64,000 bases of DNA from Physcia stellaris (lineage: Eukaryota; Ascomycota; Lecanoromycetes; Caliciales; Physciaceae). The stretch spans positions 310,001 to 374,000 of the forward strand of contig JABSSW010000008.1 in assembly GCA_018902385.1 (NCBI GenBank), read 5' to 3'. Positions 1 through 13,000 of this stretch are shown here, one piece after another (position 1 is the first letter of the stretch; each line of letters starts with the position of its first letter). The notes beneath the pieces are model-generated. The model worked only from the letters and a program-made list of their open reading frames with translations, searched no databases and was not told the DNA's origin. The translations under genes and the position numbers were made by a program.

Positions 1-836
1 CAAAAGCAAAAACAACAAAGCGATATCGATTTCGCGAACGTATGCTGTTTCAAACTTTTCGGATTTGAGCTTTTCGAGTTTTTATTAATCGACGCGTTCT
101 GATTGGCTGCAGATATTCGGAATATGACGTGTTGATGACAGGCAGACAAACAGACAGAGATTTGTGAAGAAGGCGGGCTGGATTGGCTGCGTGACAGGTT
201 CACATTGACTGTCGTTTTTCATTTCTTCATGTCATTTGCTCCCGTATCGCTGCTGTAGTGTAATAGGTCCACCTCCTATTGGTGTTGACTGCGGAGGTGT
301 AAAGAATCGAAAGAAACAACGCATGCGCTTTTGACGTCATTGAAGCAGACTCACTAGCCGTTGTAGCGGACTAACTGAATGCCATGAAGCGGGCAGAAAC
401 GCTAGGACTGGCGGAGCGGAGCGAAGCGTGACCCAAATTTTTTGTTTGGGGTTTTGGGTGGTTGTTTGTTGGTTTGGTGATGAGATTGTTGTGTGTGGCT
501 TCTATCCCCTCTTCAACAAAGCGGTGTCCCAACGCTTAAACAAGGAGGTGGTTATTGTAGAGGCCATCTGGCGGGCTGACTGGCTCGGGGGTAGGAGGTC
601 GTCAATTGACTAGGTGCCGAAGACTCGAGCAAGGAGGTCGGCACAATTGACTTGTTGGTAGAGTTTTAACCCCCACCACGGTTGGTTGACTGGCTTTCAG
701 AACAAAAAAGCCAACTATTGACTGTCATTCTCGCAAACTCACGACCATTCTCGCTGGCTCACGATGCGCATAATAAAAATGAAACGCAATCACCGTTTTC
801 AAAGAAAGAACTTCGAATTCTGACAGTTTTCTTTTG
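1..836. other. Gene-free left edge
   Basis: I see no gene that can be supported. The longest open frame is about 60 codons with no recognisable product. Base composition is mixed and no coding periodicity is obvious. The stretch leads into short tandem repeats and then the AT-rich retrotransposon, so it is probably old repeat-derived intergenic DNA. Confidence 0.5.
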
Positions 837-1030
837 ACTCGCGTATTTCTACGAATGATTCGACGATTTTTTTTAAACACTCGCGTATTTTTACGAACGA
901 TTGAAAACTTTGTTTCTACTCGTTTCTTCTACGAGCAATTGGCGATTTTCTTTAATTACTCGCGTATTTTTACGAGCATATTTGGCGATCTTATTTAATT
1001 ACTCGCGTACTTCGACGAGCATAATGAATA
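837..1030. repeat. Imperfect tandem repeat, unit about 42 bp
   Basis: The core CTCGCGTATTTTTACGA recurs at about 837, 879, 918 (degenerate), 959 and 1002, a spacing of 39-43 bp. Copies differ by a few substitutions. The cores contain a loose inverted repeat (CTCG...CGAG). There is no coding capacity. It may be LTR or subterminal sequence of a decayed element. Confidence 0.65.
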
Positions 1031-1455
1031 ACAGTTAGTCTCGCTATTCGTGTACGAAAAATCGCTGTGCTGTAAACAGTGAATCATCGTCATTGCTGAT
1101 TAAAAAAATTGCGCTGAAAACGTCATCGTCGCAAATTGATCGATTTTGTTTTTTTCTATTCGCTGATCGTTTGATAGCGAATGTGAAATTTACATCGTTC
1201 GTCACGATAAAGATCAAATATTATGTCAGACGATGCCTAGAAAACAGATAACATAACGAGAATATTTGATCTAAAAGCAAATATGTACAGCATGATCGAA
1301 TGTCTGAAATAGATTGTGTGTCAAGTTCAGATTACGTTAGTTTTCATATGAACTTTCGCTGATAAGATAAGATCTCAATCGAGATTTCAGACATGCTTTC
1401 GTAACAGACAATACAATTTCGAAAAAATGTATTGATCAAGATGTTCACGTTCAGA

Positions 1456-1558
1456 TAATATCGTTTCGAAAAAACGTATTATGAAATCATTACATACTCG
1501 ATGAAATCACGTAATATCGTTTCGAAAAAGCGTATTATGCAATTATTACATACTCGAT
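1456..1558. repeat. Two-copy direct repeat, 56-bp spacing, with hairpin core
   Basis: A block beginning TAATATCGTTTCGAAAAA starts at 1456 and again at 1512. Each copy carries near-palindromic arms (TAATATCGTTT / AAACGTATTA), so each could form a small hairpin. A weaker third copy of the TTTCGAAAAAA core lies near 1410. The function is unknown. Confidence 0.6.
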
Positions 1559-2122
1559 CTTGCAAAACAGAAACTCGATCAAAAAAACAAATAGTGTTGA
1601 AAATATCTGATTTTTTCGCATACTAATCGATCTGATTCTCTGACAGATTTTAGTCAAATCAGAAAAGTTCGAATCTGCACTCTTTGCATCGATGCACACT
1701 TTTCTTATCGATTTCTCGACCATCTCCAGCTTTTGGCATCGCATCGGCATACCTTATGGACTTCCTACAGCCAAATCGCATAGGGATCGATCCATTGATG
1801 TCGCAAGAAGTACCTGAGAACCCTGAGATCCACAATGATGCTACATGGTGTGACCTGCATTCTCGTTCGCCATCGCAGAACTCAGGCATAGGGTACTTGC
1901 TCAGTGGTGTACCTTTCACTCAATTCTAGGTACCAGATCCCACATCGATGCCTCACCTCATGGAGACACCCAGAACGCCTTCAGTCACTCGGTCGCACGT
2001 CTTACAAATCGACCCTACGTCATATCTGAAGCCAATAGGTCATCGGACCTCGATTCGTTCGTTTCTGCAGCCTTCGCATCGGTGTATGGCCTAGCCCTAC
2101 AGGATCTACGTCATACCACGTT

Positions 2123-2240
2123 GGGGGAGCTTGCTCGGAAGCTCCAGGCAACACATCGCTGGGGGAGCTCTAGGATGCGCATCGCTGGGGGAGCTCCAGG
2201 ACTCGTCGCGCTGGGGAGCTTGCACGGAAGCTCCAGGCTG
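2123..2240. repeat. GC-rich short repeats around GCTGGGGGAGCTCCAGG
   Basis: Three to four variants of CGCTGGGGGAGCT and GGAAGCTCCAGG lie close together. GGAGCTCC is itself palindromic. This GC-rich patch lies just outside the 7-kb AT-rich block and has none of its base skew, so it marks the left edge of the mutated region. Confidence 0.5.
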
Positions 2241-3494
2241 GGCTCGTTAGGATACAGGGCAGGAGGCACAAGCGGTTGCTGTGGGGGAGTGTTGAAATAC
2301 AGCCTCCGCAGGTGTGCTGTGCAGGTGCTGCAGTCAGGATCCAGTTGGTATAACCTGACGAAAGAAGGACTAGTGCGTCCTTGTTGGGACTAGTGCCTTG
2401 GCACCCGCACACTCCTTGTGCTCCCACCTGCATGTAACTTACTAGAATAACGAGATTCAGAGCAATAGAATGATAGTCACTCATGATTCTTTCAATAAAT
2501 TTCTGAATAAATTTATCGACATCGAAATTGTTTTGTGCGTCGATTGTATCACGAATGACATTGTATTCGATAAACAAAAATGTTAAAAATATTTGAAAAC
2601 GACGTTTTGATTTGAACAAATTCATCATGTCTAATTGCATATTTGCAATTTTGCGATTTTTTTTGATAATATCGATATAAACGATTTCAATGATTACGTT
2701 TGAAAATTTTTTGTAATTCATGAATTTTTGCAACAATTGTCGTTCAATTGTAACAAGTTTTTGTTTGTATTTGTTGACAAAAATTTTTCAAATTTTTTTG
2801 ACAATTTTCAATTTCGTCATTAATTTTTGATTATCGTCATCGATACATTCGATGAATTGATATTGTGTTTTTGCGTCGAATTTTTTTTCAGTTTTTTTTT
2901 CATCAAAATTCAAATCGACATTTCATTTTGATTTTCGAAAATCATTCGACAACAATTTCGACACATAATTTGAATCGACGATCATTCAAATTTTTTCGTC
3001 GATAAATCATTGTTTCATTAATTTGAATCATTTTTTGCAATTTTGACGAATAAAAATATCGCAAATTCGACGCGCGTTGAATTTGTTGAATTCGAAATTG
3101 TTCATGATACGTGATGTAATATGTAAATATATATTCGAATGTAAATTTTTTTTATTGTCGTGTGTTTTTTCGTGAAATTGTCGATCGAATCGTGTAAATT
3201 TTTTTTATTGTTTTAACGCGATCGAACGATGAATTTTTTTCACAATTGTTTGATTTTCGTGATTTCGTGATCGAACGATTGACGTTGACAATCACAAAAA
3301 ATTTATGTTAATTCGAATTTCATAATTTATTGAACGAATGTGAATAATTGTCATTGTATTGCATGCAATATTATCGAAATTACGTACAAAAATAAATACA
3401 ATTTGATTGCGCAAATGTTTTTAATAATAATCGATTTTGACACGTTTCGTTTAATCGATCAATTAAAAATTTTGATTTTATTCGTGTTCATATT

Positions 3495-4140
3495 TCAATT
3501 TTTTGTTATCGTATTTTTCAACATTTGATGCGAATGTTTTTGTCGTTGAAATTTACGTAATTTTTCATTTTGAAATTTTTTCGTCAGAATTTTTGCATTT
3601 TTGTATTTGATTTGCAATTTTTGAACATGAATTAAATTGATTTTGAATACGTTTAACAATTTTGTCAAGTATTTGACATGATTATTGACAAATTTCGATT
3701 TAATTTTGAAATTTGCAAAATTTTCGAATGACATTTTTGAAATGTATTTTTGCATGATTTCGAATGAAAACATTTGCGTTGATACATGTTTATTGTTGTT
3801 GTAAACGAATTTCGTCATGAACAATAATTTTATTCAATTGTTTTGTTCGAAATTGACGAACGTTTTGAAATATTGTTTTATGATGTTATTTTGTCGTTTT
3901 GTTTGATCATCGATTTGCGAATAATATGTCGTGAACAGTTTGAATTTGATTTTGAATGCGTAACACAACGAATCGTGATATTTTGACGTGAAAATGAAAT
4001 TTCGATCAATCGTTATTGATGACGAAAAATCATGAAATTTTATTATTTCGCGTATCAGAATTTCAATCAAATCTTTTGCGATTATCGTTTTCGTGACGAA
4101 AATGTAATGTGTCATTTTCGTCAATTTATTCATCACGACG
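3495..4140 (-). pseudogene. Integrase core remnant of the gypsy element
   Basis: Two adjacent minus-strand open frames (3834-4136 and 3495-3824) carry integrase landmarks: a start resembling VVDRLTKMAHYIP, the DRN.IFTSK block that corresponds to DRGS.FTSKFW, and the YYSQIDDQTKRQN block that corresponds to YHPQTDGQTERQN. The second frame holds the following FVYNNNKHVSTQM segment (family: FAYNNS.H.STG.SPFE). The G-to-D, P-to-S and E-to-K changes fit C-to-T mutation. It is non-functional: the frames are separated by stops. Confidence 0.85.
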
Positions 4141-5404
4141 AATATTGAATCATATGTGATTTCGTTTCATGTTTTGTTTTCAAATAATTTTGTCACGAAA
4201 TTCATTGTCAAATCAATTCATTTGAATTTCGATATAAAAAAAAACGATAACTTTTCGTATGATTTGTGACGAAAAACTTTGTTTCTTTTGCAAATGACGC
4301 ATGTTTCGCAATATTTTTTGATTTGTGCACGCATGTTACGATTTTGTTCGATGTTTTTCTCATCTCGTTCTGAATTCGATCAATAGTATTTTTTTTGTAT
4401 TAATTTTAAAGTGCGTTTAACGTCAAAATGCTCGATCAAAAAATTGTCATAATTTGATTTAATGACGTTTTTTTTTCAAATTTGATGACAAATACAAACA
4501 TTTTTCGTGTCATAATATTTCATTTTCGTTTCGTCATTGCTCATTGTACATATCAAAAATAATTAATTTTTTTTTCATTTGTACGACGCAAAGATTTTCG
4601 TTTAACAATGATCGTATCAATTCAATAATTTTTTCGATGATTTTTTCGTCGTATGTTGTTTCGATTTCGTAAATATGTTTTCGCGCAATCATTTTATCGA
4701 TCGATCGAAAAATTGTTGCATTATTCAATATTATGATTTTTCACTCATTGATAATCACGTTTGATTTCGTTTTTTGAACATTTTGACATTTCGAAAACGA
4801 ATCGTGTTAATAATTTGATTTTTGTATTGTTGTTTGAATCGCATCGATACAAATTCGAAATTTCAACGAATTTGTTTGAAAAAATCGTCGCAATTGATTC
4901 AAAATTTGACGATTGTTTTCGATTTTTTTTTCAAAAATTATCATATGATTTGATCGTCGAAACAAATCGTTCGCAAAATTTTTTGTATCAAAACGATAAT
5001 CGATGATAAAATCGTAACGTGATAATTTTTGAATTCATCGAATTTGTCGAAATGACAATTTCGTTGTTGTCATGAAACGATTGAAATTTCGATGATTCGT
5101 CAAAACGAAAATTTTTTTTTGATTTTTTCGAAATAATGTCGTCATTGTTTGAAAGCAAATACAATAATCAATAATTTTTTGTCATGAATTTCGTAATGAC
5201 ATTTCGTCGAAATCATTTTTTTCGAAAAATAAATTATCGAATGTCAATGTTTTTCGTCGTTTGATTGACACAAATTTTTTTTTATAATTTTATTCGAAAC
5301 ATCAATTTTCACGCGAATTCGTTCAATTGAATCGAAATGTCGAAAAATGAATGTTTTTAAAAACGTTTGCTTGAAAAGTTTGAACGTTTCGAAAATTTCG
5401 TAAA

Positions 5405-6330
5405 TCAAAAAGTTATTTGATATTCGTTTTTTATTTCGATTTCGATTTCGACTGACAATTCGTTTTCGTTTGATTTTTTTATGAAAATTTGTTGATTTTT
5501 TAACATGAAAATCAAAAATAATATCAGTTTATTGAAATTCTTGATGAAACGTTTGTAAAAATTGCACAATTTCAGAAAATTCAAAATTTTCAACACGTTT
5601 TTCGAAATCGATCAATTTTGTATCGCATCGATTTTGTTTTTTTGCATTTGCACGTTTTTTGAAAAAACAACAAAATTCAAAAATTCGATATTGTTTGTGA
5701 ATCATTTGCATTTGTCGTTATTGATGAACAATTTATGTTTTTTTAAACGTTGAAAAATTCATTTGACGTTTTCGATATGTTGTTTTCTGTTCATGAAATA
5801 AATGACGATATCGTCAAAATATATTATAACGCAAAAATCGAATCGTTTCGTCAAAATTTTGTTGACAAAATTTTGAAACGTTGCAAATGCATTAATGAAA
5901 TCAAAAAATAAAACGATATATTCAAAATGTTCATATCGCGTTCGAAACGTTGTTTTTCATTCATCATTTTTTTTGATACGAAATTTATTGTATGTTGCGA
6001 TCATATCGAAATTTGTATAAATGCGAATTTTGTTTAAACGATCAAAACTTTCATCGATCAACGATAAAAATATTTGTTTTTAATGATTAACAAATTTAAA
6101 TTTTTGTAATTCACGCACAGTCGTAAATTTTCGTTCTTTTTTTTGACGAAGAAAATTGAAATTTTCGTTGCGAAAATAAACGATTTGATAAAGTCGTTTT
6201 TCAAATGTTTGTTCAAATAAATTTTCAATATTGTTAATTCGTTTTCAAATAACGAATAAATAAATTCATAAAAAGATTTTTTGTTCGATTTCAAATTTAT
6301 TGCGTGATTATCAAATTCATGAATCGACAA
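5405..6330 (-). pseudogene. Reverse transcriptase remnant of the gypsy element
   Basis: The frame at 6058-6330 contains the N-terminal RT region (HAINL, then IYSLFENELTILKIYL, then FVKKKNENLRLCVNYKNLN, family FVKKKDGSLRLCVDYRGLN). The catalytic box reads YFDD (about 5808-5822) and keeps both aspartates. The frame at 5405-5596 contains the connection segment (FLKLCNFYKRFIKNFNK, family FLGFANFYRRFI..FS). Stops between these pieces make it inactive. Confidence 0.88.
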
Positions 6331-6686
6331 TTCGTAAATTTTTTTTTCATTCGAAATTTTTGCGAATTTTTTCAGAATTTCAAATATGATGATTTTGATA
6401 TTTGATTTTTTTTTATTTTCATTAAAATTGAATTTATTTGAATTCGTCGTTCGATATGTATTTCATTCAAATTATTTTTTTCGTCATGAAATGTTCGTAC
6501 GAACATGACGAAAATTTCATTTTTTCGTCAATCATATCGTTGACTAATTTTTTCGATTCGATTTTCTCGATACGATTCATGATGAAAAAAATTTTGAATT
6601 GATAATTGTTAAAATCGAATTTTATTAACAATTCAATTCATTTTTGCTTTTGATAATTTAAATCATGACAAATTTAACGATATATC

Positions 6687-7080
6687 TCAAAATAAATCGA
6701 CTTTTAGAAAATTTTCGTTGAAAAAACGATTCACGTCGTTCTCGTCTGAAACTTCTAATCGTACGAAATAGATTTTATAAATTTTGAATTGATTATTGTC
6801 GAAAATCATGATTTCACAAAAAAAAACGTCGAACAAAATTAGTTTGAATTTTTTAGCAAAAACGTTATTTATCAAATTAATTTTTGCTTTTGAATTCATG
6901 ATTGCAAGAATTTTACTGTCATTGATTTTGATTTTGATTTTATCGCATTTAATCGTGCGAAATTTTTTTCGACGACGTTTGTTGATAATATCGTTAAAAC
7001 TCGTCGAAAAAAATTCGTCGTCGTTGTTATTGTTCGTTAAAAGATTTTTCATTATGTCAATTTGATTGAAAAATGTCAAA
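6687..7080 (-). pseudogene. Aspartic protease remnant
   Basis: The motif ILAIMNSKAKINLI lies at the place of the retroviral-type protease motif (.A.IDSGA.INLI). The catalytic Asp has become Asn and the Gly has become Lys, both G-to-A changes, so the enzyme would be dead even if the frame were open. It lies between the gag zinc knuckle and RT, as expected. Confidence 0.65.
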
Positions 7081-7139
7081 TCGTTTAGTTTTTTGCTTTT
7101 TCGATTTCGAACAGAAATTTTGCAAAAACAGTGCATTTT

Positions 7140-8050
7140 TTTTATTGATGCAAGCGTTGATATCGTGATCGTTTTTATCACATTCAAAACATTTTTCATT
7201 TTTCTTTATGACAGCGAATTCGATTTTGATTCAACGATACAATTTGAATTTGATTGAATTTTTGTTAAAATTATCGAATTTGAATTTTTTATCGTTTTTT
7301 TCATTGTCATTGTCATTTTCGTTGTCATTGTTGTTGAGTTTGTTTTTTTTGTTGAATTGTTTTTTTTCGTTGATGAGATTATCGTCATTTCTTTTGCGTT
7401 TGTTGAAATCATTGTTGATGTTAATTTCGATGATTTTTTGCTTGTTATGTTGACTATTTTGATAATCAACGTTTTCGATCTTTTTGAAACGATTAAAAAT
7501 TTCAATTTTAATATGCATATCGCGTTTTTTAGCGAGAAAACGTTTATGTTTCGAAAACAATTTTTTTATAAAATTTTGAAATTTTTCGTGATTATTGAAT
7601 TTCAATTTCGACGTAAATTGAATCATGAAAACGATTCGATTGACGTCATAATTCATAACAAATTGTTTGTTAATTTGTTTATAATTCAAATATTTATCGT
7701 AAATATTTTCGATTTTGATGAAAATTTTCTGTACGTTAATTTTCAGAAAATTTTTGTATTCGATTCAAATACGTTTTTCATTTGATTTTGCAATGATGTC
7801 GATTTTTCATAACATGTGTATAGTGATTTTTCGTTTCAAAAAGATTTCGACATACACAAATTTAACATTATTCGAATCGTTTACGAAACGATCGCATTGA
7901 TTGATTTTGAATTAATTTTTCATAATTCGAATATGAAATATTCATTCGACGTAAAATTTTTCGATATAAAACGCAAATGTTTGTTTAATTGTTTTAATGT
8001 AATAAGATTTATCGTTGCGACGAAAAATTTCAAATGCAACAAAAAGCGAT
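7140..8050 (-). pseudogene. Gag remnant with CCHC zinc knuckle
   Basis: The frame at 7231-7689 is a lysine/asparagine-rich gag C-terminal region. A complete CCHC knuckle (C-x2-C-x4-H-x4-C, reading CFECDKNDHDINAC) lies at about 7150-7191 in a neighbouring minus-strand frame. Its Cys and His codons are intact, although the surrounding sequence is heavily mutated. Further gag-like sequence runs to about 8050 without a clear start. Confidence 0.7.
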
Positions 8051-9572
8051 AATTGTATGAAACGTTGACGTGTTAAAATCATTTGTTGACGAGTATAGAT
8101 TTTTCATTGTGCAATAAATGTTTTTTCTTCAGATTTTTCGAGCAAAAATTTCGCATCGAAATTTGACAATGATGAAATATCGCGTGCAATCATTGAAAAT
8201 ATATTTATGTAATTATACACGAATGATGTTAATCAAATGATTATGATAATTATTAAAATGTAAAAAATTTGAACATCAAAAATGTATAACAAAAAACGAT
8301 ATTATTTTTAAATTAATAATTGCAAAATTAATTATTTTTCACGAAATTTGTTATATACACGTTTTGTTTGATGTAACGTACATATCATTCAACGCATATG
8401 CGCAAATATCGATGCGTTAATCGTTGTTGCGTTGATTTTATTAATATGACGAAATTGTTTGTTTCATTGTATAATCGATTTGATATTTCGAATTTGCTTG
8501 ATTTGAAATCTCGACAGTCGAAATTCGATTCACGTTTTTTGCAAATTTTGAATTTTGAATTTTTACAAAATTGAATACGAATTTGAACAGAATTTTTTTC
8601 ACGATTATTTTGATGCAAATTGAATCAATTCAATTGACGATCGAAAATTTCATGAAAATTTTATTTTTTTTTTTGCAAACGATTTTGTATCGTGATATTT
8701 CAAACGTCAAAACACGATTGTTTTATCGAATTGTGAATTCGAATATTATGCATTCGTTGAAACGAACAAAAAAATCGTGTGATTTCGTCAATTTTTCGTG
8801 AAATTGAATTGCATGTCAAATTCGAAATCGAATTTGATTTATGCAAACAATCAAAAAACAATTGCATTGTTCGAAAATTTTGAACATTATAAACGCACGA
8901 AACATATTGTCAACAAATGACATTGAATTCGTCAAACAATTGAAAAACATATTATTCAAATGAAATACGTATCGATTGTTTTCATGATTGCAAATGATTT
9001 AACGAAATTTTTGAATTCGAATGTTTTTCAAATGTTTTTGAATTTCATAAACATAATTTATTGATCGATTTATTTTGCAAACATTATCATTTTTTTGTTC
9101 GTTTACACGCAAAAAATAATTAATCATATTGAAAAATTGTTTGTGCATGAAAAAATGCGCATGAATTATCAACACATTCATTTGAAAAACAAAAATTAAA
9201 ATTTGATTCGTGTTGATTAATCAGCAAAATTTGATATAATCGAAAATTGCATTTTTGATAATTAAATGTTTAAAAAAAATATGTTGAATGAAAAATTCGA
9301 AACAACGATAACATTTTATTTTTCAAATTATACAAATTCGAAACATCAAATCGTTATATCGTAAAATTGATGATTTCGTCAATTAATAAAATACATTCGC
9401 ATATGCGATATATGCGATATACGCATTACATGTCGTGTATCAGATTATTGTTGCATACGTTGCAACAACAAATCGAACGTGTATATATATCGTTTTCTGC
9501 AAATCAGTAGATAGAATCTTAAGCAATACAATTACAGTCATCCAGAACTACTTCCTACGAAGTAGAATAACA

Positions 9573-10013
9573 TCTTTGTTTGTACGCGATAAGATTTTGA
9601 GGCTATGGGTTATATGATCCCCAATTCTCTAGGTCCTCGGACCACATCACAAGCCCGGCCGTGTTTGCAGAGGTCCACGTACCTGGAGCCATGAAATATC
9701 AGGTGACATTATCTCCGTTATCGCCGCTTACTTAGCGTGGGTCGCCTCACTTTCTGAACGTCCCCTCGGTCGAGGTCCTTCTCGTATCCATTCGCTGTCA
9801 CAATAATAAGTCAAACCGTTACCCCGGAGCATCCGGAGCATCACTGAAGCCAAGCGTACCTCAGAGCGTCTTTGAACTAAATTCCGCGAAGAGTGCTCTG
9901 AGGAAGCGGCCTCCGGTCGTCCTATGTGTCTCTGCCTCGCTAAGGAGCTCGGGGACTAGTTCAACACCTCACCTTACAGTGTTCATCGGGCATCCTTCTG
10001 GATAAATCTCATC
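9573..10013. other. Intergenic stretch before the NLR-like gene
   Basis: Composition returns abruptly to about 50% GC. No coding frame longer than about 20 codons is supported. It presumably holds the promoter and 5' UTR of the NLR-like gene. I recognise no specific site. Confidence 0.5.
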
Positions 10014-13000
10014 ATGACTTCAACAGCTGCTAGTGCTGCTCTGACCGTGCCTCAGCAAGGAGACCCAAAGCCTGACTTGTGGAAAGAAGCCTTGAACGCT
10101 TTAAGCTCAGAGGATCGACACCAATTTGATGACTCATCGTCCAGTCAACATGAAACCCTGCAGAAGGTATGTGTGACTAGGTCACTTTGCCTCTGCAACG
10201 ATAAATTTCTATTATGCTGTGGGCTTTAAAAGCAATTCCCTTTATCCCATAGACTAGTCTGGCGTACAATTTCCGTCGTGACACAGGCCGTGTACGCCAC
10301 CGTTTTTCCCTCATGGGTTATCTTCCTTAATGTGTATCTACCTGTGTACGATGCAAACGGCATGCAGTGAGTGACATTGATTGTATGAATGTTGCAGGTC
10401 CACGAAGCTACCGAGAATGCCAAGGAAGCTTGTGTAGCTAAAGGATGGAACGTGTATCGCAAAAAGAACGGCGAGAAAATTAAATTACGGCACGTATTAG
10501 AAAAGCTTTCAGTATGGGTGGAGAGTGCCATCAAGGTCATTGACTTGGGAGTATCCTTCGACCAAAGTGGCCACGCAGCTTTACCGTGGGGTGTCGTCAA
10601 GTTCATAGTCACGGTATGCAAACATGAAAGCTTGTCCTGCTTTTATGACATTGCTAATTTGGCAGTATTAGATGGGAAAGTCAAGTAAGCGGAACTATTG
10701 CCTACAAAGCAAGAATGCCAGTTAAAAAACCCCCACAGATATCGAAGTATTCAGCAACATAGTTGAACAGGTTGAATCTATATCTTGCCTGATAGCTCGA
10801 TATGCTGTTATAGAGAAGCTGTACCTGGAGGGAGCCAGCGAAGCAAAGATCGGGCTGCGTGAATCCATTACGAAATTCTATGCTGCAATATTGACTTATC
10901 TTGCCAGAGCAAAGTCCTATTTTTCTGGAAATACTCTCAAGCAGATTGGCCGAGGCTTGCTTGAAGTAACGCGTAATCACTACGATGCGGCTAAAGTTTC
11001 TGAAATGGAAGTTCATAAATGGATGGAAACGGTCGATAGGGAATCCGATCTCGAAACGGCAAAACTTGTGACCCAAAACTATGAGGTTTTGAAGACGATT
11101 TTGCGCGACTTCAATAAACCGATCACACGTATGGCTGTTCAAATGAGGGATCTGCATGACAATTTCAATAGGGAGGAGCGCACGAAGGTATTCCATTGGC
11201 TGTCTAAAATCGACTATGAGAGACATCATGATGATCTCTCAAAACATCTGTTACCGGACACTGGCCAGTGGTTGTTCGACAGCCAGCCATTTGTTGATTG
11301 GGGACAATCAAGTGTATCTTCCATTCTCTGGCTTCATGGCATACCTGGTTCGGGAAAGACTAGGCTCGTATCGAGGATAATTGATGTTATGCGCAACGAA
11401 AGTACTCCAAACAGATCACCTATTGCATTCTTCTACTGCGCCAGGAGTACAGCCGAGCCGGAACGTGGGAAACCGGTTGAGGTCCTTGGTGCCATACTCA
11501 AACAGCTTTGTAGCTCAGACCCAGATGAACCTATCAGAAATTCTATAGCAACGGAGTATGCAGCGCGCATACGTAAAGCTGACTATGATTACTCTAGAAT
11601 TAGGAAGCTGTCGGTCGAAGACTGCACCAGATTGATTCTCGAACTTACCAAGGACAGCCCGGCAACGATTGTTGTCGATGCTCTGGATGAGTGTGATGAG
11701 GAAACTCGTTATGAGCTTCTCGAAGCTCTGGATAAGATTATAGCCGATTCTTTAGAAGTTGTGAAAGTGGTGGTGTCCAGCCGTGATGTCGTCGATATCG
11801 TGAGTGTTTTTGCTCCCATGTTAGTATTCAATGAGCCCCTAGCTACATGTGAAATATGGGGGAATACATTCCGGATCAACTTGGTTGGAGAGCTACTGAT
11901 ATACCCTTCGCAGAAATTACGTCTGAAGCATTGCAATAATATTTCCATCTCTGCTGATCGCAACGAAAGCGACATCGCACGATTCGTGTCATCGGAAGTC
12001 GACCGTCTAATCTCCAAAAAGCTTCTTCTGGATGGCAGGATACACAAAAAGCTAAGAAAACGGATAATCGAAACCTTAAAGAGTGGAGCTCAGGGGATGT
12101 TTCGTTGGGTTGCCATGTCTCTCGAGACTCTCCAACAGATCAAATCCAAACAAGAGTTCGAGGATCGCCTTGGTCGGCTTCCGTCGAAGCTTTCTGGGCT
12201 ATACGACATCATACATTCAGAAATCATACGTTCAGAGTATGGTCGAGTTGCAGCTACAAAGACCCTGAAATGGTTACTTTGTGCTCAGCGTCTATTGACC
12301 GTTGAGGAGCTAGCAGCAGCTATACAGCTGCCTTACGATGAAGCGATGGACTCGTCTTCGGCCTCAGATGATAGCGAGAAAACGGATGACGAGACAAACG
12401 ATCAAGCCATCGACTCGTCTTCGAGCTCAGATGACAGCAATCAGAAGGGCATTGAGACAGAAACGTGGATCGAGGACAACATTATCCGGCTATGCCGCAA
12501 CCTTGTCGTTGTAGACTCCGAGCGAAAGGTTTTTCGCTTTGCACACCAGTCTGTCCGCGAGTACCTGTTGACACGAAAAGAATACACCGACAAAGAACAG
12601 CACACGCTTGTCGTGGAGCGGTGCTTTGAAATATATGAGGTCGAGACCTCCCCGTTCCTGCTGAGCCAAACCTGACACGCCAAAATGAACTCCTGAAACC
12701 GTATGCTAGAGGATACTGGCCTGTACATTACAAGTATCTAGATGATTTGGGGTCACAAGGGTCGAGAAAGAATTTAAGGAAATTCATGATACAAGACTCA
12801 GAAAGACCTTCACCATACATGCAGTGGGTAGTCGACGTGAAAAACAGCTTCGGTAGTAAGGATGAAGTTCGACCAATCTATAAGATCAGACGGTCTTTGG
12901 GACTGGGGGGGGAGGATCCTCTACCCCTCAGATTAACGTATGCACTAGCAGAACCTCATACTCCTCTCAGTATGATCTGTGCATTCGGTTTTTCTTCTAT

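Follow-up and report, generated by a model that had tools for sequence, protein, structure and literature searches.

C-to-T hypermutation at CpC and CpT, with CpA and CpG spared, in repeats of the lichen-forming ascomycete Physcia stellaris

In repeat-induced point mutation (RIP) that depends on RID, C is changed to T on both strands of repeats and single-copy DNA is spared. The order of targets is CpA>CpT>CpG>CpC in Neurospora crassa and, in T. reesei, CpA and CpG about equally, then CpT>CpC (PMC5496416); the products of such RIP, the type of N. crassa and most Pezizomycotina, include mutated relics of ribosomal DNA (rDNA) (PMC5555474). We have analyzed an AT-rich block at positions 2440-9572 of C8:310001-374000, a 64,000-nucleotide stretch of the Physcia stellaris genome that we call the window. 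The genome analyzed comprises 43.97 Mb in 147 contigs; the published assembly, made from ascospore cultures with nanopore and Illumina reads, is 46.57 Mb with 43.32% G+C (PMC7513301). Physcia shares with RID-dependent RIP the C-to-T change on both strands of repeats, the sparing of single-copy DNA, and the presence of RID-class (by likeness) and DIM-2-class genes. Unlike in N. crassa and T. reesei, however, CpC is mutated ahead of CpT, and CpA and CpG remain at background.

Several other fungi depart from the CpA rule. In Botrytis, Sclerotinia, Magnaporthe, Anisogramma, and Colletotrichum, RIP has a CpT signature, with CpT->TpT a major change, which accompanies CpA mutation or alternates with it among families; the available text of these reports does not contain the term CpC (PMC4352252, PMC6180176, PMC10998396). 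Physcia resembles these fungi in that CpT is mutated and RID-class genes are present, and its two RID-like genes and one DIM-2-like gene match the two rid genes and one dim-2 of Anisogramma (PMC10998396), but in Physcia CpC leads and CpA is at background. Monilinia shows CpC->TpT double changes beside classical CpA RIP (PMC8959702), and in Stagonospora CpC and GpG are depleted along with CpA, CpG, and TpG (PMC2621366); in both, unlike in Physcia, CpA is the main target and CpC a side effect. Basidiomycete repeats (Microbotryum and others) carry repeat-biased C-to-T mutation at CpG or TpCpG (PMC4352252, PMC4014442), whereas Physcia spares CpG (10/530 in one element copy; 0/34 in rDNA). Reported signatures at CpG come from basidiomycetes or are mixed. 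The nearest CpC-led report is from Rhizoctonia solani AG8, where single nucleotide polymorphisms (SNPs) are spaced at 214 bp for CpC, 370 for CpG, 422 for CpA, and 491 for CpT (PMC4014442, Table 2), but these SNPs lie between heterokaryon nuclei and are equally dense in genes, their authors describe a CpG bias, and the repeat-confined, near-total loss of CpC seen in Physcia is absent. Our literature search, within the text available, found no report of repeat-directed C-to-T mutation led by CpC with CpA spared. Among lichen fungi, the available text of a report of RIP in Cladonia rangiformis contains none of the terms CpA, CpC, CpT, and TpA (PMC12542154). The text of PMC12387558 does not contain RIP as a whole word.

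The block (7133 b) has a G+C content of 25.5%. It contains 2 CC and 0 GG, against ~100 and ~134 predicted from base composition alone, together with 48 CT (observed/expected 0.14) and 61 AG (0.19). In the same DNA there are 397 CA (1.44) and 395 CG (3.43), and TA is scarce (415; 0.43), as an earlier reading made from the sequence alone had noticed. That sequence-only reading had also reported by eye a stretch without CC or GG, which proves to run from 2428 to 9541 on the plus strand (~74.5% AT, CpA and CpG kept), and its dinucleotide counts are exact on recount, both at 3541-3840 (CA 17, CG 10, CT 0, CC 0, AG 2, GG 0) and at 7201-7500 (CA 10, CG 13, CT 5, CC 0, AG 3, GG 0). To the left, CC/GG last occurs at 2427, and to the right it reappears at 9542; the two CCs counted within 2440-9572 lie at the right edge, at 9542 and 9554. 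Outside the block the window is ordinary (observed/expected CC 0.97, GG 0.98, CG 0.89).

The prediction that standard RIP indices would misread such DNA was correct. The block has a product index of 0.42, a substrate index of 1.48, and a composite of -1.06, and thus scores less RIP-like than the remaining window (0.66, 1.28, and -0.63). With thresholds of 0.89 for TpA/ApT and 1.03 for (CpA+TpG)/(ApC+GpT) (PMC10998396, PMC6180176), it lacks the high first value and low second value of classical RIP. The same composition recurs elsewhere: among 20 spot samples of 1 kb, with positions fixed before viewing, 4 are CpC-free (CC+GG 0-1, G+C 0.20-0.27) and 16 are ordinary (CC+GG 94-159). TpA/ApT and CpA+TpG indices can therefore miss heavy repeat-directed mutation entirely, and a negative RIP index is no evidence against such a defense. 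A survey with a method built on standard indices scored two lichen fungi, Gyalolechia flavorubescens and Cladonia metacorallifera, as positive for RIP at 5-9% (PMC7882544). They and Cladonia rangiformis share with Physcia AT-rich repeats derived from transposable elements beside ordinary gene regions. The two surveyed species, however, are picked up by indices that do not register the Physcia mutations, and what is seen in Physcia is thus not necessarily common to lichens at large.

The central claim of the sequence-only reading was that C decays to T at CpC and CpT while CpA and CpG are spared, and it proposed alignment with other copies, tabulated by 3′ neighbor, as the check. We made such alignments to three kinds of less mutated or unmutated reference, and each shows mutation of C before a pyrimidine (CpY). 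Neither of the outcomes named as contrary to the claim, C-to-T change led by CpA or relatives with the same composition but without C-to-T differences, was found. First, the window copy was aligned over 2.7 kb with a relative copy, L028. At sites whose 3′ class is unchanged, 222/226 CpC and 265/281 CpT are mutated, against 44/237 CpA and 36/220 CpG; without this condition on the 3′ class the values are 226/271, 266/324, 81/349, and 67/326. As L028 is a relative and not the parent, ordinary divergence contributes to the counts at CpA and CpG; T-to-C differences number 30/256 at TpA and 37/347 at TpG. The 5′ base is irrelevant in this comparison, and both strands behave alike. Five other mutated copies (L025, L034, L036, L037, and L041) give the same rule against L028, and the partly mutated L019 gives a weaker contrast (CpC 85/184, CpT 112/244, CpA 57/250, CpG 38/231).

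Second, an intact gypsy-type copy, L058 on C12, was compared with four mutated siblings over 3929-3979 positions each. Relative to L058, L061 is mutated at 531/566 CpC, 375/495 CpT, 25/522 CpA, and 10/530 CpG, and L062 at 535/564, 392/491, 22/520, and 9/528, respectively. In L060 the values are 487/560, 234/483, 17/514, and 11/526, and in the less mutated L059 they are 433/557, 211/486, 14/520, and 11/528. The CpA and CpG changes are near ordinary divergence; another intact copy, L057, differs from L058 by 3-4% in all four CpN contexts. In L061 the second C of CCA (6/152) and of CCG (1/134) is spared, and so is the C of TCA (6/148) and TCG (5/174).

Third, an rDNA relic on C41 was compared with the conserved (upper-case) letters of Rfam models at 563 positions, with every aligned line that has such letters taken in; two lines of the small subunit (SSU) are split at gaps, and one is poorly aligned. 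Here 34/37 CpC and 21/51 CpU are mutated, against 1/39 CpA and 0/34 CpG. The relic occupies 1133-10000 of L044 (C41:40001-50000) on the minus strand and is an rDNA unit (large subunit (LSU), 5.8S, and part of the SSU) with CpC-first mutations. A 5.8S search gave one match among the 39 candidates scored of 2644, and that match is the mutated relic; a functional unit may have been missed or be absent from the assembly. An internal transcribed spacer (ITS) sequence taken from this copy would therefore be a pseudogene, and AT-rich rDNA (ITS) pseudogenes call for caution in barcoding. The LSU match, at 1133-5737, spans 4605 bases against a model of 3401 positions, so it contains extra stretches (introns or expansions); no group I intron in it scored above the Rfam gathering threshold.

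From these comparisons we regard the hypermutation and its CpY rule as real, with near certainty. Decay at CpG or CpA was considered and rejected, as both are at background in the L058 siblings and in the rDNA relic.

C-to-T change at CC and CT is also a signature of ultraviolet (UV) damage at pyrimidine pairs, which might be expected in a sun-exposed lichen. We rejected this explanation and consider it vanishingly improbable, as the TCA and TCG sites of L061 are spared though their C adjoins a pyrimidine; moreover, 16 of the 20 spot samples have ordinary composition, as does the rest of the window apart from repeat tracts.

A sequencing or assembly artifact, or an old compositional bias of the elements, could likewise be invoked, given the extreme composition and the nanopore and Illumina origin of the assembly (PMC7513301). 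This too was rejected and seems very improbable: within this one assembly, nearly all differences between intact and mutated copies follow the CpY rule, rRNA with known conserved letters carries the pattern, and protein relatives from other public contigs show the residue losses that it predicts. These relatives, 53 proteins matching the open frame at 6058..6462 of the window, all come from ENA contigs, and a mutated query favors mutated matches. Among their 8500 residues, Pro makes up 0.08%, Gly 0.13%, Trp 0.18%, and Gln 1.29%; each has at most 1 Pro and at most 2 Gly, and 34 of the 53 lack Pro, Gly, and Trp altogether. The loss of Pro, Gly, and Trp is what CpY mutation predicts, and thus the pattern is not confined to the Physcia assembly analyzed. 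Two of the relatives, P0288 and P0277, have neither Pro nor Gly yet keep 5 and 3 Trp, either because TGG was kept or because TGA was called as Trp.

The order in which sites are lost can be read from 839 bins of 300 bp (L002-L008, L013-L056, and the window; these are related copies and not independent). Among bins with CC+GG of at least 3, 0/340 had CT+AG below 10, and in the 443 bins with CC+GG of 0, CT+AG ranges from 0 to 29. Mean CA+TG is 36-39 in the CC+GG-0 bins and 40 where CC+GG is at least 20 and CT+AG at least 30; twice CG is 33-36 and 33 in the same classes. Thus, CpC is exhausted first and CpT next, with CpA and CpG almost constant. The identity of the 5′ base has little weight, with CpC before C and CpT before C or G somewhat less mutated. 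Overall both strands are mutated, but the strands of L059 diverge over its first 800 bp, where one has 4/91 CpY sites mutated and its complement 94/124 (Fisher p 2e-28, the place having been chosen after looking). This contrast is a trace of one-strand mutation tracts; L060-L062 show no strand contrast as strong. Stop codons follow the same rule. Within 150 scored reverse transcriptase (RVT_1) matches, of 527 candidates, there are 250 TGA, 33 TAA, and 3 TAG, and 10 of the 150 are stop-free. Such an excess of TGA is what conversion of TGG by way of CpC, with CAA and CAG left alone, would produce.

The sequence-only reading offered three mechanisms: a variant of RIP, a DIM-2-like branch, and a deaminase. 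Of these, the RIP variant fits best, the DIM-2-like route is less favored in view of the sharp right-hand edges and of a change that is not gradual, and a deaminase is possible but finds no support here. At the right end, homology stops at window 9563-9564 in three copies examined (L048-L050, on C21, C10, and C14) of four matched full length. The first CC or GG beyond that point lies 2, 8, and 23 bp away, and CC+GG per 100 bp past the end is 8-11, 5-9, and 7-13 in the three copies, versus a mean of 11.9 for the window, in which the DNA flanking the block is ordinary immediately (16 and 11 CC/GG per 100 bp). Mutation is confined to repeats where tested, and at the three right ends there is no leakage into adjoining unique DNA of the kind that marks DIM-2-type spreading.

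These edges bear directly on the possibility that DIM-2-type, heterochromatin-guided methylation of CpY in repeats was followed by slow deamination of 5-methylcytosine (5mC), or by DIM-2-mediated RIP. A heterochromatin-guided route would be expected to spread, yet CC/GG returns within 23 bp of the element end in all three copies. Slow deamination would also add ordinary substitutions, but over 3979 positions L061 differs from L058 by C-to-T at 906 CpY sites and otherwise by only 24 transversions and 15 changes of T to C, and decay of methylated sites is at odds with the strand-wise tract in L059. For this route speak a DIM-2-like gene with a long open frame in the genome, as in DIM-2-mediated methylation and RIP elsewhere, and the statement in a 2026 review that Neurospora DIM-2 prefers CpT (PMC13297926). 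The preference in Physcia, however, is for CpC over CpT. Taken together with the sharp right edges and the non-gradual change, these differences make the DIM-2 route unlikely.

A CpY-preferring DNA cytidine deaminase, AID/APOBEC-like or other, acting on single-stranded transposon DNA would account for the strand-wise tract in L059 and for C-to-T being nearly alone among the types of change. Known AID/APOBEC enzymes, in contrast, read the 5′ base. In Physcia it is the 3′ base that decides, the 5′ base hardly counts, and the second C of CCA and CCG is spared; the rDNA relic, moreover, is mutated as well. A search with the APOBEC_N profile gave no match in the genome, but 0/14 controls matched either, and the result carries little weight. 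The dCMP_cyt_deam_1 profile gave eight matches among those listed, as profile matches only. On balance a deaminase seems distinctly improbable.

We therefore consider it likely that the block records repeat-directed hypermutation of the RIP type, in which the choice of target is inverted (CpC > CpT >> CpA, CpG) and a RID-class enzyme is the agent. Because the working is RIP-like and the CpA preference is lacking, we treat it as a variant of RIP and not as classical RIP. In such a process, homology would mark out duplicated DNA during the sexual phase. The C would then be turned to T by an enzyme of the RID class whose 3′ specificity has changed, either of two paralogues that we call RID-A and RID-B, presumably on one strand at a time and across hundreds of bases. 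Repeated rounds could exhaust CpC first and CpT next.

Several observations weigh against this interpretation. First, the CpA preference that defines classical RIP is missing in Physcia, and a clear strand-wise tract is seen in one copy only, L059. Second, no evidence connects any of the three methyltransferases of the genome with the mutations, or places the mutations in the sexual phase. Third, the edges of mutation and of homology do not always coincide. Inside the repeat, the final 700 bp of L049 and of L050 still contain 3 and 5 CC/GG, respectively. The left edge of the block lies off the homology edge, with window 2325-2501 matching L021 1170-1346 (177 bp, 84%), and window 2325-2427 keeps 15 CC/GG where the matching part of L021 has none. 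The survival of CC/GG at the left edge is perhaps owed to the shortness of the stretch shared with L021. Finally, L057 (C5:1166521 region) and L058 (C12:60312 region) are 95% identical over 4 kb, and both are unmutated; their frames are long and open, and their composition is ordinary. The 38 other matches scored have 73-85% identity to the query. C/T differences between the two lean slightly toward CpY (74/121 with the 3′ base unchanged). In classical RIP, duplications longer than some 400 bp and of ~80% identity are mutated. Many Physcia repeats are mutated too, but a process that hit every long duplicate in each generation would not leave this pair unmutated. The two copies may be recent arrivals or may evade the process, or the process may be rare, stage-limited, or now weak or fading.

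As to the enzyme, a search of the genome with the PF00145 profile, following the suggestion to look for cytosine methyltransferases, found three genes of the Dnmt1 type: the DIM-2-like gene on C3, whose frame is long and open, RID-A on C5 (L011/P0001), and RID-B on C6 (L009). The DIM-2-like and RID-like labels are given by likeness and by motifs of the family, and the tree described here includes no authenticated Neurospora RID. A sequence search of the PDB with RID-A returned Dnmt1 and bacterial 5mC methyltransferases only, and no structure named RID. A quick tree was built from 114 of the 234 catalytic domains, with every named domain kept and the others subsampled. It places RID-B in a clade of 38 rows (SH-aLRT branch support 99) in which just one other member, from Heterodermia (Physciaceae), is named; the Teloschistales, Usnea, Lecanora, and others that carry names lie outside it. 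Among the 38 proteins P0121-P0158, QSFSPAQ follows SPPC in 24 and near variants do so in 3, the pattern being unmatched in 11, and the first motif-VI match is MEETFG or MEETYG in 28. In the first 120 RID-A matches, QFFSDAH occurs in 81 and LEQTSG in 56. The RID-B motifs are PCQSFSPAQ and MEET(F/Y)G, versus mostly PCQFFSDAH and LEQTSG in the kin of RID-A. One tentative possibility, which we rate as appreciably short of even, is that RID-B was re-tuned in the Physcia lineage to a pyrimidine 3′ of C, founding a separate branch of repeat-directed mutation with CpC>CpT. Such a branch would erase Pro, Gly, and Trp codons and make TGA stops, leaving CpG and CpA sites untouched.

Few biochemical approaches exist to RIP, the catalytic step of which is unproved, and target choice by the base 3′ of C is one of them; a table in a 2026 review gives RID catalysis in vitro as "not detected" (PMC13297926). 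An inverted preference and two divergent RID-like paralogues in one genome make the enzyme that sets the target directly testable.

The block itself is a mosaic of repeats with remains of a Ty3/gypsy-type pol. A 1-kb repeat unit at 2498..3526 shares its left limit, 2498, with each of the seven other copies examined (L002-L008), in which 74/77 bins of 300 bp lack CC/GG, and ends at 3523-3526 in 38 of 39 other scored matches. The pol-bearing part occupies 3524..7644 on the minus strand; its 4174-7644 portion has 93% identity to L025 and L034, two further hypermutated copies, and its 3524-6905 portion 63% identity to an unmutated relative copy on C76. On the same strand lie an RVT_1 profile match with 3 in-frame TGA (5672..6073; C8:315672-316073), the 134-aa open frame at 6058..6462, a mutated reverse transcriptase segment by its likeness to a frame of L028, and a 172-aa open frame in mutated DNA (6687..7205). 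A Pfam search of four block frames, these two open frames included, gave no match at E 0.01. The element end, at 8801..9562, has copies on C21, C10, and C14 (92-94%, 740 bp) and on C69 (73%).

A 9-bp direct repeat, TAGAATAAC, found by a 9-mer search, stands near the block ends at 2443..2451 and 9563..9571 on the plus strand, and nowhere else on that strand of window 1-11000. It is a possible target-site duplication, but a doubtful one because the 177-bp match to L021 runs through the left copy.

To the left of the block, dinucleotide counts reveal a second, milder repeat tract at 901..1560, in which CC 1 and GG 2 are left and CT (28; observed/expected 0.76) and AG (26; 0.71) are for the most part retained; it looks as if it had been mutated in fewer rounds than the main block. 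Short direct repeats with 42- and 52-nt units occur at 860-1023 and 1451-1558, within or beside this tract. Elsewhere in the genome, at C76:124001-142000 (L045 and L046), an unmutated element copy is flanked by two CpC-free stretches, and L046 1750-7000 has 21% G+C with CC 0 and GG 0.

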